Shown here one piece after another: positions 20,657 to 36,342 of a stretch of 64,000 nt of DNA; position 1 is the first letter of the stretch, and each line of letters opens with the position of its first letter. The notes beneath the pieces are model-generated. The model was not told where the DNA came from, did not search any database, and was given only the letters and a program-made list of their open reading frames with translations. Source of the stretch: Venturia oleaginea (taxonomy: Eukaryota > Ascomycota > Dothideomycetes > Venturiales > Venturiaceae); the NCBI GenBank assembly GCA_013176395.1, contig JABMLP010000020.1, forward strand, positions 1 to 64,000, written 5' to 3'. Both the position numbers and the translations under genes were made by a program.

Positions 20657-20741
20657 AGAGCCGATCGAAAAAAAACAGCACACACAGCGAGAACTCAATT
20701 TTTGGAATTTACAGAAGTATCATCTAAAGATCATCAAAACA

Positions 20742-20835
20742 CTCTGCCAGTGGCCGCTCCGGCCTCTAGAGGCCATCGCGCGTCCCTCAGCGTCGATGAG
20801 ATACCTCTAGAGTCGCCGTCGCGGCCACGGCAGAG
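20742..20835 (+). repeat. GC-rich hairpin near the 5' end of the retroelement
   Basis: CTCTGCCAGTGGCCGCTCCGG on the left can pair with the reverse of CCGTCGCGGCCACGGCAGAG on the right, and inner CCTCTAGAGG blocks also pair. The same hairpin is kept in the copy at 34.3 kb. Confidence 0.7.
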
Positions 20836-21079
20836 CAAGCAGACGAATACATGAGCAAGCTACACGAACGATGCGTCCACCAAAGACAACAGCAACCATC
20901 TAGTCACTATCTCCCGGCTAGTCCATCACCCCAGATGACACTGCAACGCTCCGAGTCGACGAGTCACTGCTAGAACGGCAATACCTTCAACACATCTCAA
21001 ACACCAGACGCCCGGTGCGCAACAATCGGCACCACACACCACTGCAACGACTAGACAATCTCTCCCAACGTCTTGGGAA

Positions 21080-21785
21080 ACCGTCCTGCTACAAGCTGTT
21101 GCCCAGAGCCTTGAGCCTCTCCCCAAACTGTTGCGTCCCAGTTATGGCATTGGCAAGAGTAGGTGCGCGACACAGTAAGTAGTAAGGACGCATAGAAGGA
21201 GCCTATTGGCGGCAAATCCCCTCCCTGTAAGCTAGCAGACGTAGCCTTGAGCCTCTCCCCAGACTGTTGCGTCCCAGTTATGGCAGTGGCAAGAGTAGGT
21301 GCGCGATATAGCAAGCAGGGAGAGCGACTAGCAGCAGATAGGCCCCGACTATAAGACGACAGGTCTACAACACAATCGGTGCGACACGATACGGCAGCTG
21401 CTAGAGAACCTCATCTACTATCGTCTCCGCAAACCGTCCTGCTGCAAGCTGATGTCCAGAGCCTTGAGCCTCTCCCCAAACTGTTGCGTCCCAGTTATGG
21501 CATTGGCAAGAGTAGGTGCGCAACACAGTAAGCAGTAAGGACGTATAGAAGGAGCTTATTGGCGGCAAATCCCCTCCCTACAAGCCAGCAGACGTAGCCT
21601 TGAGCCTCTCCCCAGACTGTTGCGTCCCAGTTATGGCAGTGGCAAGAGTAGGAGCGCGATATAGCAAGTAGGAAGAGCGACTAGCAGCAGGTAGCCTCCG
21701 ACTATAAGACGGCAGGTCTATAGCACGATCGGCGCCATACAATACGGCAGCTACCAGACAGCCTCGTCCACGGGCATACCCGGAG
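21080..21785 (+). repeat. Two tandem 353-bp units in the retroelement
   Basis: The motif AGCCTTGAGCCTCTCCCC occurs at 21107, 21243, 21460 and 21596, with spacings of 136, 217 and 136 bp. This shows a 353-bp tandem duplication in which each unit carries the motif twice. Copy 2 of the element has the same arrangement. Confidence 0.8.
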
Positions 21786-32947: not shown

Positions 32948-33318
32948 ATGGATGCGCAAGTCTTCCCAGGAAATAATGGACTTCGAATCGAAGCTGACAA
33001 TAGCGCAGTGGCAAGACCCCAATCAAGCTCGTCAAGGTGACCCGTACGAATCCTCCGCACCTACAACCTAGCCAAGATACCGAAAGCTAATTCCCCTAGG
33101 TGTCCTAGGACGTACTGGTTCTCGCGGTGGTGTAACCCAGGTCCGCGTAGAATTCATGGACGATACCACTCGAGTGAGCCTCCCTCTCCCACGATGCGCA
33201 CAAGGGACACAAATACTGACATGCGCAGTCCATTATCCGCAACGTCAAGGGCCCAGTCCGCGAAAACGACATCCTCTGCCTTCTCGAATCCGAGCGTGAG
33301 GCCCGAAGACTCAGATAA
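32948..33318 (+). CDS. RPS28: 40S ribosomal protein S28
   Basis: Four exons (32948-32955, 33009-33043, 33100-33173, 33229-33318) give 68 residues, the usual length. The spliced protein reads MDAGKTPIKLVKVTRVLGRT, GSRGGVTQVRVEFMDD, then SIIRNVKGPVRENDILCLLE, a near-canonical eS28. eS28 sits at the mRNA exit channel of the small subunit. Intron 1 (53 nt) begins GCAAGT, the standard GC-type donor, and has a CTGAC branch point before GCGCAG. A GT-type alternative exists (GTCTTC donor, AAG acceptor) but is weaker. Introns 2 and 3 are GTACGA...TAG and GTGAGC...CAG. Four exons in a 68-residue gene is dense, as is usual for ribosomal protein genes. Confidence 0.93.
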
Positions 33319-34027
33319 GCGATCAATAAGGCGCAAAAATAATCCAACGAGTGTGGCGGAAGGACTGCTTGTCTTCATAGGTGATAAATCACTATACGAT
33401 GCATGTGATGGAGCATTTGCTCCGTGGGTACGGCATAAGTTATCAGCTTTGCTTCACCTGGCTACAACTTGTCATTTGGCGTCTAAATTGGGCATAAAAT
33501 TCAATACTTCGGCACATACTCGAAGCTGTGTGGAATTTCTACTCGAGATCAGTGTTTGGGGTGCCCCCATGGACAAAAAGAATTCTTCTATCAGCTCGCA
33601 AATCTGGCGTACTGTGTAAAAGGTGGCTATAGGGTGGGCTGCCATTTCGCTTTATATTTCATAGTAAAGGTAAATATCGAGCCGAATGATTGAAGAACAC
33701 GGTCTACTTTTCGATCGTGACTATGTTTTCTGCACTGTATAAAAATCTCTAACGAAATGAACTCAAGCTTCCACTGTAAGTAATTCTCTCATCTAGGGGA
33801 GCTAGTGCTAGCCATGTCCTTTTTCATCAATACCTCCTCTCCGATCGGTTAAGATCATGAATGATGAACTTCCGCCCATTTGTCGAAGTATAGCGTCTAG
33901 AAAAATCGATAGCTTTCTCATTTCTGGACTTAGTTATAGGGCATCACTATATCTACAATGGTTTTTTACTTAATCTACCGTGGTGCCTATTCTAAACCTA
34001 CCGTGGTCAAACTAACCAAGTAGAGGG
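33319..34027. other. Gene-free stretch before the second transposon island
   Basis: 3' flank of RPS28, then AT-rich sequence. A CTACCGTGGT motif occurs twice near 33975-34005 and once inverted near 38400, on the far side of the transposon island. No gene seen. Confidence 0.5.
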
Positions 34028-36342
34028 TGTTACAGATCACCTCAAGGCTGAAGAGCAGGAAGGCAGGACTCGCAAAGAATGGTTGGATGATAAGAAGTTT
34101 ATTGCTAGGACTGATAATGGAGGGGAATCCTTCGAGCACACAGGACGAGACTGGTGCGACGGAGTCAGTCCTAAAGGAGAATAGTACGTGCAGGAGTCAC
34201 GTGATATCCCCACAGTTCCCACAGGTCTTGGCAAGGCTTACAGGTGTGGGAAGTGAAAACAGCACACACAGCGAGAACTCAATTTTTGGAATTTACAGAA
34301 GTATCATCTAAAGATCATCAAAACACCTCTGCCAGTGGCCGCTCCGGCCTCTAGAGGCCATCGCGCGTCCCTCAGCGTCGATGAGATACCTCTAGAGTCG
34401 CCGTCGCGGCCACGGCAGAGCAAGCAGACGAATACATGAGCAAGCTACACGAACGATGCGTCCACCAAAGACAACAGCAACCATCTAGTCACTATCTCCC
34501 GGTTAGTTCATCACCCCAGATGACACTGCAACGCTCCGAGTCGACGAGTCACTGCTAGAACGGCAATACCTTCAACACAACTCAAGCACCAGACGCCCGG
34601 TGCGCAACAATCGGCACCACACACCACTGCAACGACTAGACAACCTCTCCCAACGTCTTGGCAAACCGTCCTGCTACAAGCTGTTGCCCAGAGCCTTGAG
34701 CCTCTCCCCAAACTGTTGCCTCCCAGTTATGGCATTGGCAAGAGTAGGTGCGCGACACAGTAAGTAGTAAGGACGCATAGAAGGAGCCTATTGGCGGCAA
34801 ATCCCCTCCCTGTAAGCTAGCAGACGTAGCCTTGAGCCTCTCCCCAGACTGTTGCGTCCCAGTTATGGCATTGGCAAGAGTAGGTGCGCGATATAGCAAG
34901 CAGGGAGAGCGACTAGCAGCAGATAGGCTCCGACTATAAGACGACAGGTCTACAACACAATCGGTGCGACACGATACGGCAGCTGCTAGAGAACCTCATC
35001 TACTATCGTCTCCGCAAACCGTCCTGCTGCAAGCTGATGTCCAGAGCCTTGAGCCTCTCCCCAAACTGTTGCGTCCCAGTTATGGCATTGGCAAGAGTAG
35101 GTGCGCAACACAGTAAGCAGTAAGGACGTATAGAAGGAGCTTATTGGCGGCAAATCCCCTCCCTACAAGCCAGCAGACGTAGCCTTGAGCCTCTCCCCAG
35201 ACTGTTGCGTCCCAGTTATGGCATTGGCAAGAGTAGGAGCGCGATATAGCAAGTAGGGAGAGCGACTAGCAGCAGGTAGGCTCCGACTATAAGACGGCAG
35301 GTCTATAGCACGATCGGCGCCATACAATACGGCAGCTACCAGACAGCCTCGTCCACGGGCATACCCGGAGTATCACACCCAAGCAGCGAAATCACGACTA
35401 CGATGGTTACTATTGTCTCCAGCATCACACAACCAAATACACCGCCGCATAGGAATCTGGTGCAAGGCAACTTTCACAAGCAGAAACATACTTAGGGAAC
35501 CCATTGGCCTTGAGGGATAAGGCGAAACAGATAGACAAAGCTGAGCATTAGAGGGAGACTGTAGGTAGAAGGATAGCGAAACACGAGGCATTGCCTCTTG
35601 AGTCTACATAGCACAGATATACTAGCAGAATAACCAGTATCTACAAGAGCCAGCGGGCATTTGGAGATACTGGTTAAGGGAAAAGAGGGAGGACGGAGGG
35701 GACAGCTGGTCTTGTTTCAGTGAACGGGGCGAAGTGGGGCGCGGTGGATTATATAATCTATCACGTGTCGGCTGTCTGATGAAGTCCTCCTAACCGGACA
35801 TAGCTGCGTGATTAAGCGGCTGCAACCGAGTAGGATAAAATCAATCAATCAATCAATCAGGTGTGGGAAGTGTGGGAAAAGGCCAAGAGGTGTGGGAATA
35901 CACCTTGGCATCCAGAACCAGAACGGTATATAGGGAGAACGTTGGACGGACTTTCCTTTCTCTCTTCGTGGTTATCTCATGTTATGTTTCTCACCTAGGA
36001 GCTTCTTCAACCTACTACAGTAACGACCTTTTACTTAGATACAATCAAGCACAAGTCATATGCACACGAAGCAAGCCCACCCCCAACCTTCATACTAACC
36101 GACAAGCGTTCAGGATTGATCTGAGGATCAAATCGGTTAGGCGACAATTGAATTGAGAGATACATCGGACGGCTAGGATCTAGTGAGCCTCCAAAGAACC
36201 TGAGCAAGGGAATGTACTTAAGGTAAGTACTTCCAGACTGATATTGCCCTTACCCCAAACCCGCGGACCAGAACAAGAGAACACAGGTGTCAAGAAGGTC
36301 TTGACATAATCAACTGTGTTGAGAAACGAGTTCCCCGTAACA
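34028..36342. repeat. Probable solo LTR split by the 1.6-kb retroelement
   Basis: Sequence from TGTTACAGATCACC (34028) to CCCCGTAACA (36342) has TGTTAC/GTAACA terminal inverted repeats. Excluding the retroelement and its second flanking repeat it totals about 0.7 kb. It contains a TATA-like TATATAGGG near 35930, no coding frame, and TG/CA ends as expected for an LTR. No matching target duplication is seen outside it, so the call is moderate. Confidence 0.5.
34256..35857 (+). mobile_element. 1.6-kb ORF-less retroelement, copy 2
   Basis: Flanked by a perfect 15-bp direct repeat CAGGTGTGGGAAGTG (34241-34255 and 35858-35872). It begins AAAACAGCACACACAGCGAG and ends in a TCAATCAATCAATCAAT tail one unit longer than in copy 1. 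It is the same length as copy 1 within 2 bp and differs only at scattered single bases. The same hairpin and the same two 353-bp units are present. It is inserted inside a probable solo LTR. Confidence 0.87.

Follow-up and report, generated by a model that had tools for sequence, protein, structure and literature searches.

A 1.6-kb repeat of Venturia oleaginea, very probably an internally deleted derivative of a Tad-like LINE

The repeated element of about 1.6 kb which we describe here is very probably a non-autonomous, internally deleted derivative of a Tad-like LINE, which most likely mobilises it; a segment of other origin occupies the gap. Two copies lie in the window, a stretch of 64,000 nucleotides from the contig JABMLP010000020.1 of Venturia oleaginea. 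We do not class the element as a SINE, since it keeps both ends of the LINE and has targets in common with it. The sequence-only reading had proposed a retroelement family, very long for a SINE, with a LINE partner: the partner is supported, but the family is not an isolated SINE-like one. The element most likely spreads by borrowing the enzymes of the LINE, as judged from the 3' fold and the target sites which both have in common.

Copies in the window and in the genome

All features given below are on the forward strand. Copy 1 occupies positions 20667–22270 and copy 2, also full length, 34256–35857; these borders, as first read, are exact to the base. The two copies have 98.9% identity over 1600 alignment columns. 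Copy 1 is flanked by the perfect 12-bp repeat ACAGAGCCGATC (20655–20666 and 22271–22282), copy 2 by a different perfect 15-bp repeat, CAGGTGTGGGAAGTG (34241–34255 and 35858–35872), so that the flanking repeats reported earlier are both confirmed. The left duplication of copy 2 lies inside gypsy-type LTR sequence, whose right part (35887–36342) is 98% identical to the LTR of locus L070. Tails of slightly unequal length had been noted and are indeed found: copy 1 ends in the (TCAA)n tail TCAATCAATCAATCA of 15 nt (22256–22270) and copy 2 in TCAATCAATCAATCAAT of 17 nt (35841–35857), at the end of a 3' domain which starts at 35533. Both copies begin with an A-run, of four A in copy 2 (34256–34259) and of eight A after an extra G in copy 1 (20667–20675). 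The start at an A-run stands, with the refinement that a G often precedes it: this is the base found in all 13 copies carrying extra 5' nucleotides, as expected for a copied cap.

The element is abundant. A pattern scan of the 46-Mb genome gave 399 5' ends at no more than one mismatch (controls 0), and the 3' half of the element is found at 487 sites. Exact 24-nt 3' ends number 502, a count which includes the ends of the LINE itself; reversed-pattern controls gave none. The copy number is some 400–490, and these end counts against empty controls exclude a chance origin. Most copies have a complete 5' end. When 100 listed tails were paired with the 5' ends listed on C1–C5, exact 5' matches being listed first, 36 of the tails remained unpaired; they are a mixture of copies with a changed 5' end and of true truncations. 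Among 28 copies the mean pairwise difference is 0.56%. No signature of repeat-induced point mutation is apparent, because, of 46 differences of the type C>T or G>A, only 8 fall at CpA/TpG sites.

We examined the flanks of 32 copies, as part of the check which the sequence-only reading had proposed for all copies: they vary from copy to copy, and 27 copies show target duplications of 9–16 bp (mode 15) together with TCAA tails of variable length. The duplications vary in sequence and length; that of L026 has just 9 bp and that of L028 has 14 bp. The other five copies have no clear duplication. They are L004 and L029, the two head-to-head copies L016/L017, from which some 13 nt at the start are missing as well, and in L006 the second, shorter copy, whose long tail obscures any duplication. 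Variable tails and duplications of this kind support target-primed reverse transcription (TPRT), as had been suggested.

The element has no recognisable coding frame, in agreement with the earlier reading. Read from stop to stop, copy 1 has no frame of more than 119 amino acids; the longest frame in the majority sequence of the 28 copies is also 119, which equals the median of its 300 base shuffles. The two frames scanned had no Pfam match. With frames of chance length and this empty Pfam result, a hidden gene was rejected.

The partner LINE and the ends of the element

A LINE partner had been predicted, and a LINE of 5.9 kb with a homologous 3' end is present in the genome. Its Pfam domains are endonuclease, reverse transcriptase and RNase H, and its ORF2 combines the AP endonuclease, reverse transcriptase and RNase H expected in the Tad1 clade. 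Its proteins are similar to those of other fungal LINEs, and Tad1 is its putative clade. The LINE looks recently active, as the first reading had anticipated: all 40 of its 5' ends that were scored have 98–100% identity, and 40 of its 3' ends have 99–100%. On C1–C5 there are 20 RNase H matches, eight of which have the 3' 24-mer of the element exactly 827 bp downstream. Two others lie outside the matches listed for this 24-mer, and the rest are other or incomplete copies. The genome search found no LINE closer than 84% to the element. A search with PF00078, tried as a route to the LINE ends, gave 30 loci, none of them matching the element; in the sense frames read (12 of the 30 loci) they appear by eye to be gypsy-like polymerases.

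The 5' domain of copy 1 (20667–20881) is homologous to the 5'UTR and the start of ORF1 of the LINE. The first 41 columns have 85% identity; the rest has diverged. Positions 42–215 of the element still give z = 6.1 against the LINE, with none of 300 shuffles as good, and the homology is over by 215. Past the first 41 nt it is patchy. The 3' domain (21948–22270) corresponds to the last 29 nt or so of ORF2, the 3'UTR and the tail of the LINE: these approximately 320 nt have 84% identity and end in the same tail.

The predicted RNA fold of this 3' domain is conserved between element and LINE. Its alignment energy is –91.4, compared with –69.7 ± 6.1 in controls, none of which (0/200) reaches it. 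Pairing is kept in 15 of the 20 changed pairs, and among 1000 controls only 4 do as well; three of the pairs are changed on both sides, a number which is not unusual alone (49 of 200 controls reach it). In the hairpin at 22046–22091 (z = –6.9) two pairs have both bases replaced in the LINE and still pair, one has turned into G-U and one is broken. A terminal hairpin (22203–22250) is found directly before the tail; the region 22196–22270 gives z = –2.9.

Element and LINE also have targets in common. At one target they lie in tandem with nearly the same duplication, and the gypsy LTR is an insertion hot spot for both; the LINE shows a marked preference for the LTR of a gypsy-type element as its target. 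Some of the copies counted at the hot spot may have been multiplied along with their host LTR.

The central domain and the origin of the element

Between the two ends of copy 1 there is a domain of about 1.07 kb (20882–21947) without detectable similarity to the LINE. It does not appear to be a remnant of LINE coding sequence: the local score is 24 on each strand, with shuffle medians of 25 and 24. It contains a direct repeat of 300 nt (21061–21360 and 21414–21713; period 353 bp, 92% identity) and four similar cores of 76 nt, at 21107–21182, 21243–21318, 21460–21535 and 21596–21671. Stable RNA hairpins in the cores were considered and rejected (z from 0.3 to 1.2). The central domain has a colinear relative in a metagenome contig; three pattern scans of viral contigs gave no relative. 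From the four cores and the colinear relative it would follow that this domain is a conserved RNA or DNA module rather than filler, a reading which we consider unlikely. The module might then aid transcription or recruitment of the LINE proteins, which would explain why the element outnumbers its LINE several-fold.

The element very probably originated when the LINE lost its coding interior, and the central segment with its repeats, which is of other origin, now fills the gap. Transcription by Pol II would start from the LINE-type 5' end and give a capped RNA. The LINE ORF2 protein would probably recognise the LINE-type 3' fold with its UCAA tail, nick the target, prime reverse transcription on the tail and copy the RNA up to its 5' end.

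The same mobilisation could act on an element that arose in another way: a template switch in the course of LINE reverse transcription, as in the WEIRD-MGL chimeras of Magnaporthe, might have joined LINE ends to a non-coding RNA of the host or to some unrelated repeat, and the product might later have turned into a self-propagating family. We hold this origin to be rather unlikely. It would account for a centre without LINE similarity, and fungal LINEs are described to make such chimeras (PMC2104539). After a simple 5' fusion, however, the 5' end would not be homologous to the LINE. The alignment of the 28 full-length copies, in which two single-base columns are the only gaps, is continuous across the junctions, so that any fusion would have taken place once and not repeatedly.

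A classical SINE, with a Pol III transcript, a head from tRNA, 5S or 7SL RNA and a LINE-derived tail, would also lack a reading frame, show target duplications and have its 3' end in common with a LINE. We find it very improbable: the 5' end is LINE-derived, no tRNA was detected in the window, and the region 20000–23000 has no Rfam match at E ≤ 1. A T5 tract about 33 nt into the element (20699–20703) is expected to stop Pol III, and SINEs are usually far shorter than 1.6 kb. Segmental duplication or a DNA transposon would fit the near identity of the compared copies. Flanks specific to each copy, variable duplications and variable tails speak against both, as does the absence of any inverted repeat of at least 20 nt joining the ends, and we regard them as extremely improbable. 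No autonomous version with TIRs or LTRs, the contrary case named by the sequence-only reading, was found: the autonomous relative is the LINE.

Comparison with known systems

With both ends homologous to a LINE, no coding capacity and the hallmarks of TPRT, the element has the features of the SIDE/RIME type. The closely comparable R2 SIDE (Short Internally Deleted Element) of Drosophila willistoni is described as a 529-bp element of the rDNA, with ends 64% and 81% identical to R2 and a 197-bp centre without R2 identity; its 3' end folds like that of R2, its movement is credited to the R2 TPRT machinery, and a 5' ribozyme releases it from the 28S cotranscript (PMC3414825). Our element is like it in having two partner-homologous ends (here 85% over 41 columns and 84%), a centre without similarity to the partner and a partner-like 3' fold. 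It differs by its 1.6-kb size, its dispersed copies with different flanks, its 1.07-kb centre with repeats and the lack of a ribozyme among Rfam matches (E ≤ 1, 20000–23000).

TbRIME and NARTc of trypanosomes are presented as short non-coding derivatives of 260–1030 bp, formed by internal deletion and mobilised by ingi/L1Tc, with duplications constant at 12 bp and a 5' signature of 76–79 bp (PMC3820030). As in our case, they have a target preference in common with their partner, and long and short elements form tandems split by one target duplication. In contrast, our element has duplications of 9–16 bp with mode 15, and a TCAA tail.

In Magnaporthe the MINE elements (WEIRD-MGL chimeras) are attributed to template switching, with 31 copies and duplications of 10–20 bp; the same paper treats Mg-SINE as a SINE-family element (PMC2104539). 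MINE elements are also fungal, attributed to a LINE, and have a non-coding part joined to the LINE 3' end. Our element differs from them as one fixed structure amplified to hundreds of copies, in which the LINE 5' end is also kept. SVA and LAVA of hominoid primates are likewise non-autonomous and LINE-mobilised, with a central repeat domain (PMC4432496, PMC7353768); they are hominoid-specific composites with Alu and VNTR parts, and we claim no relationship.

LINE parasites which keep both ends of their host seem uncommon, as the R2 SIDE paper states for Drosophila (PMC3414825). The absence of a fungal family with this build, as first noted, agrees with the literature searched, where we found no described fungal example of the SIDE/RIME type; elements built in this way are known outside fungi. 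Where repeats are annotated and not compared with the LINE, such an element might well go unclassified. A pair as young and abundant as this, in a fungal genome of compact size, offers a test of which parts of a LINE RNA suffice for mobilisation: the comparison points to a 5' part of some 200 nt and a structured 3' part of about 320 nt. The kind of element is already known from flies and trypanosomes; what is new is its size, its high copy number and a centre which contains repeats and is related to sequence of a metagenome contig.

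The two copies in the window and their surroundings

We will start with the two copies of the element found in the window, which are 98.9% identical. On both sides copy 1 (20667-22270) is flanked by ACAGAGCCGATC, and copy 2 (34256-35857) by CAGGTGTGGGAAGTG. The borders proposed by the sequence-only reading are exact, the differing direct repeats which it described are present, and both copies terminate, as it had stated, in TCAA repeats of unequal length. The absence of a coding frame was also borne out: the longest open frame, in copy 1 as in the majority sequence, has 119 aa, which is also the median when the latter is shuffled 300 times, and a Pfam scan of two frames gave no match.

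The window covers the beginning of contig C13, in a genome of 46.08 Mb in 61 contigs; its first bases are telomere-type repeats. Less than 4 kb from them there is a gypsy-like gag-pol remnant, recognized by eye (184-4013, minus strand). The mismatch-repair gene Msh3 (13494-16880) is found about 13 kb from this telomere-type end; the identity of its protein is 84% to Venturia nashicola and V. inaequalis, 79% to V. effusa and 88% to another entry. The genome most likely belongs to the Venturiales. A decayed second LINE at 47554-52300 has endonuclease and RT-like frames, with a PF14529 match at 48995-49231 containing one stop.

The partner LINE and the ends shared with the element

A LINE partner had been predicted from the sequence alone, and we have found one which has its 3' end in common with the element. 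Its copies were located by searches with RNase H and endonuclease domains. On contigs C1-C5, 8 of 20 RNase H matches lie 827 bp upstream of the element's 3' 24-mer, a distance identical in all eight; two of the 20 fall outside the tails listed. The copy at locus L061 (1745-7668) has 5.92 kb, with two frames: ORF1 shows CCHC-like motifs by eye and no Pfam match, while ORF2 contains endonuclease, RT and RNase H. It is flanked by CAGTGTGGGAAGT, a duplication of 13-14 bp. From its domain order we take this LINE to be Tad-like. Its nearest named protein relatives are fungal (Hortaea werneckii, 63%); other database proteins reach 74%. At least 40 LINE 5' ends are 98-100% identical and at least 40 3' ends 99-100%, with two further partial matches at 84% and 81%; these numbers are lower bounds, the candidates in the first pass being 73 and 635.

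The last 323 nt of the element and the last 317 nt of the LINE are 84% identical, a stretch which spans the last 29 nt or so of ORF2, the 3'UTR and the tail. The 5' ends show 85% identity over 41 columns, A-run included. Further inside, the score of element 42-215 against LINE 41-205 exceeds that of dinucleotide shuffles by 6.1 standard deviations (0/300), and the stretch after 215 scores below the shuffle mean. The centre has no similarity to the LINE on either strand; immediately left of the 3' homology there is a weak signal (z 3.0, 2/300 shuffles). These end alignments and shuffle tests indicate that the element begins with the LINE 5'UTR and the initial 75 nt or so of ORF1, continues with approximately 1.07 kb of other sequence and finishes with the LINE 3' end.

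The shared 3' end also has a conserved predicted structure. The alignment of one element with the LINE folds with -91.4 kcal/mol, compared with -69.7 ± 6.1 in controls with the same substitutions placed at random (0/200). In the element's own predicted fold, 15 of 20 changed pairs are still paired in the LINE, equalled by 4 of 1000 controls; the three pairs changed on both sides are not unusual alone (reached in 49/200 controls). Aligned in three rows, the fold loses one pair, and a gap falls on three others. For the hairpin at 22046-22091 z is -6.9; its counterpart in the LINE has two pairs changed on both sides yet still paired, one turned into G-U and one broken. Such a structure would fit recognition by the reverse transcriptase of the LINE, as in stringent LINEs.

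Copy number, insertion marks and target sites

The exact 24-nt 3' end of the element occurs 502 times in the genome, including the LINE's own ends. Internal 28-mers at positions around 1103 and 259 are found 487 and 449 times (up to 2 mismatches), and the 25-nt 5' end 399 times (up to 1 mismatch); control patterns for each count gave 0 matches every time. Therefore most copies are complete or nearly complete, and the pattern counts suggest that approximately 1.4-1.7% of the genome belongs to this family. Among 100 tails listed of the 502, 56 can be joined to a 5' end that is also listed, 8 are LINE tails and 36 are unpaired. The spacing is 1594-1597 bp in 50 of the 56 pairs among the matches listed; three of the six outliers differ by 353, 137 or 217 bp, and the others (-262, -60, +53) do not fit the repeat spacings. 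The internal repeats of the element, with spacings of 353, 136 and 217, probably recombine, since these three differences approximate them. The second copy in locus L006 is 353 bp short. In another place (C8:208105-208405, minus strand) three 5' ends spaced exactly 138 bp form a short array in which roughly the first 138 bp are tandemly repeated.

Insertion marks were studied in 32 copies: one in each of 30 loci (L001-L030), another in L006, and copy 2 of the window. In 27 of them, L028 included, the target is duplicated over 9-16 bp, most commonly 15. No acceptable duplication was found in L004 and L029, and the head-to-head pair L016/L017 has none; in the second L006 copy it is masked by a long tail. 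The L016/L017 pair (C17:95008-98324) is rearranged, each copy lacking its first 13 nt or so, with mirrored 5' flanks. In L029 (C1:1812380-1812440) a full-length copy is preceded at 36 bp by an additional 5' end, a partial 5'-end duplication. The A-run has 4 to 8 nt across 26 scored copies, and in 13 of them one to five extra nucleotides separate it from the duplication; the preceding base is G in all 13. A copied mRNA cap would leave such a G, as in LINEs. Some extra nucleotides recur, GACG in L009 and L015 and GATACG/GATCCG in L004/L019: they were possibly transduced from a source copy. The mean difference among 28 copies is 0.56%, a value biased towards young copies because the 30 loci were chosen as best matches to copy 1.

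The motif GTGTGGGAAGTGTGGG lies within the LTR of a gypsy-type element at locus L070, where the repeats 2477-2932 and 9094-9549 (99%) enclose a frame of 1800 aa. Insertions of the LINE and of its derivative recur in this LTR. Without an insertion, the site is present 126 times (up to 2 mismatches); directly behind a TCAA tail the motif is found 48 times, window copy 2 being one of them. Five of the 48 junctions are LINE 3' ends (of at least 40), although two of these, on C15, may be mutual duplicates; non-LINE tails at the site are 9 of 92 among the tails listed, with coordinates compared by eye. Duplications at the site have 12, 13-14 (LINE), 15 and 16 bp, a variation which indicates independent insertions; some copies may have multiplied along with the LTR. 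There are also tandems: on C56 a single duplication lies between a LINE, flanked by CCTTACGAAACTC, and an element, flanked by CTTACGAAACTCTT, and the element L015, on another contig, has the same target sequence. On C2 two elements in tandem have a common duplication, AATGTAAACAAG. Trypanosome LINE/derivative pairs are marked by such tandems, according to excerpts of PMC3820030.

The centre of the element and its known counterparts

The centre contains two 353-bp units, 90% identical over the unit, which hold four 76-nt cores with a mean column identity of 91% across 91 columns. The cores fold no better than shuffles. An antisense frame over them matches a single protein, P0241, encoded in a 1783-bp metagenome contig from JGI (E 2.1e-5, among 50 candidates passing a word filter). 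In direct comparison P0241 is colinear at 37% with the antisense strand of the 5' half, from element position 566 to 162; an additional short weak match covers 139-98 (E 0.30), and the core is present in P0241 at 70-73%. Because the element frame is interrupted by stops in the matching stretch, the likeness is probably one of DNA; in that case a relative of the element would probably exist in another genome or strain.

The element is real, young and abundant, and most likely mobilised by the LINE. Non-autonomous relatives have been described in fungi, in the literature consulted: Mg-SINE and WEIRD-MGL chimeras in Magnaporthe (PMC2104539), SINEs in Aspergillus fumigatus (PMC5063351) and a non-autonomous retrotransposon in barley powdery mildew (PMC6022647). 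The listings obtained in searches of freely accessible literature show no internally deleted LINE family in fungi, and excerpts of fungal TE surveys mention none. The closest build is that of R2 SIDE in Drosophila willistoni: excerpts of PMC3414825 describe both ends as related to R2, a centre without R2 identity and an R2-like 3' fold. The R2 SIDE centre has 197 bp, compared with about 1.07 kb here. TbRIME and NARTc are counterparts in trypanosomes (excerpts of PMC3820030). This kind of element is already known: by the literature searched, its novelty lies in its occurrence in a fungus, its length, the repeats in its centre and the target site which it shares with the LINE.
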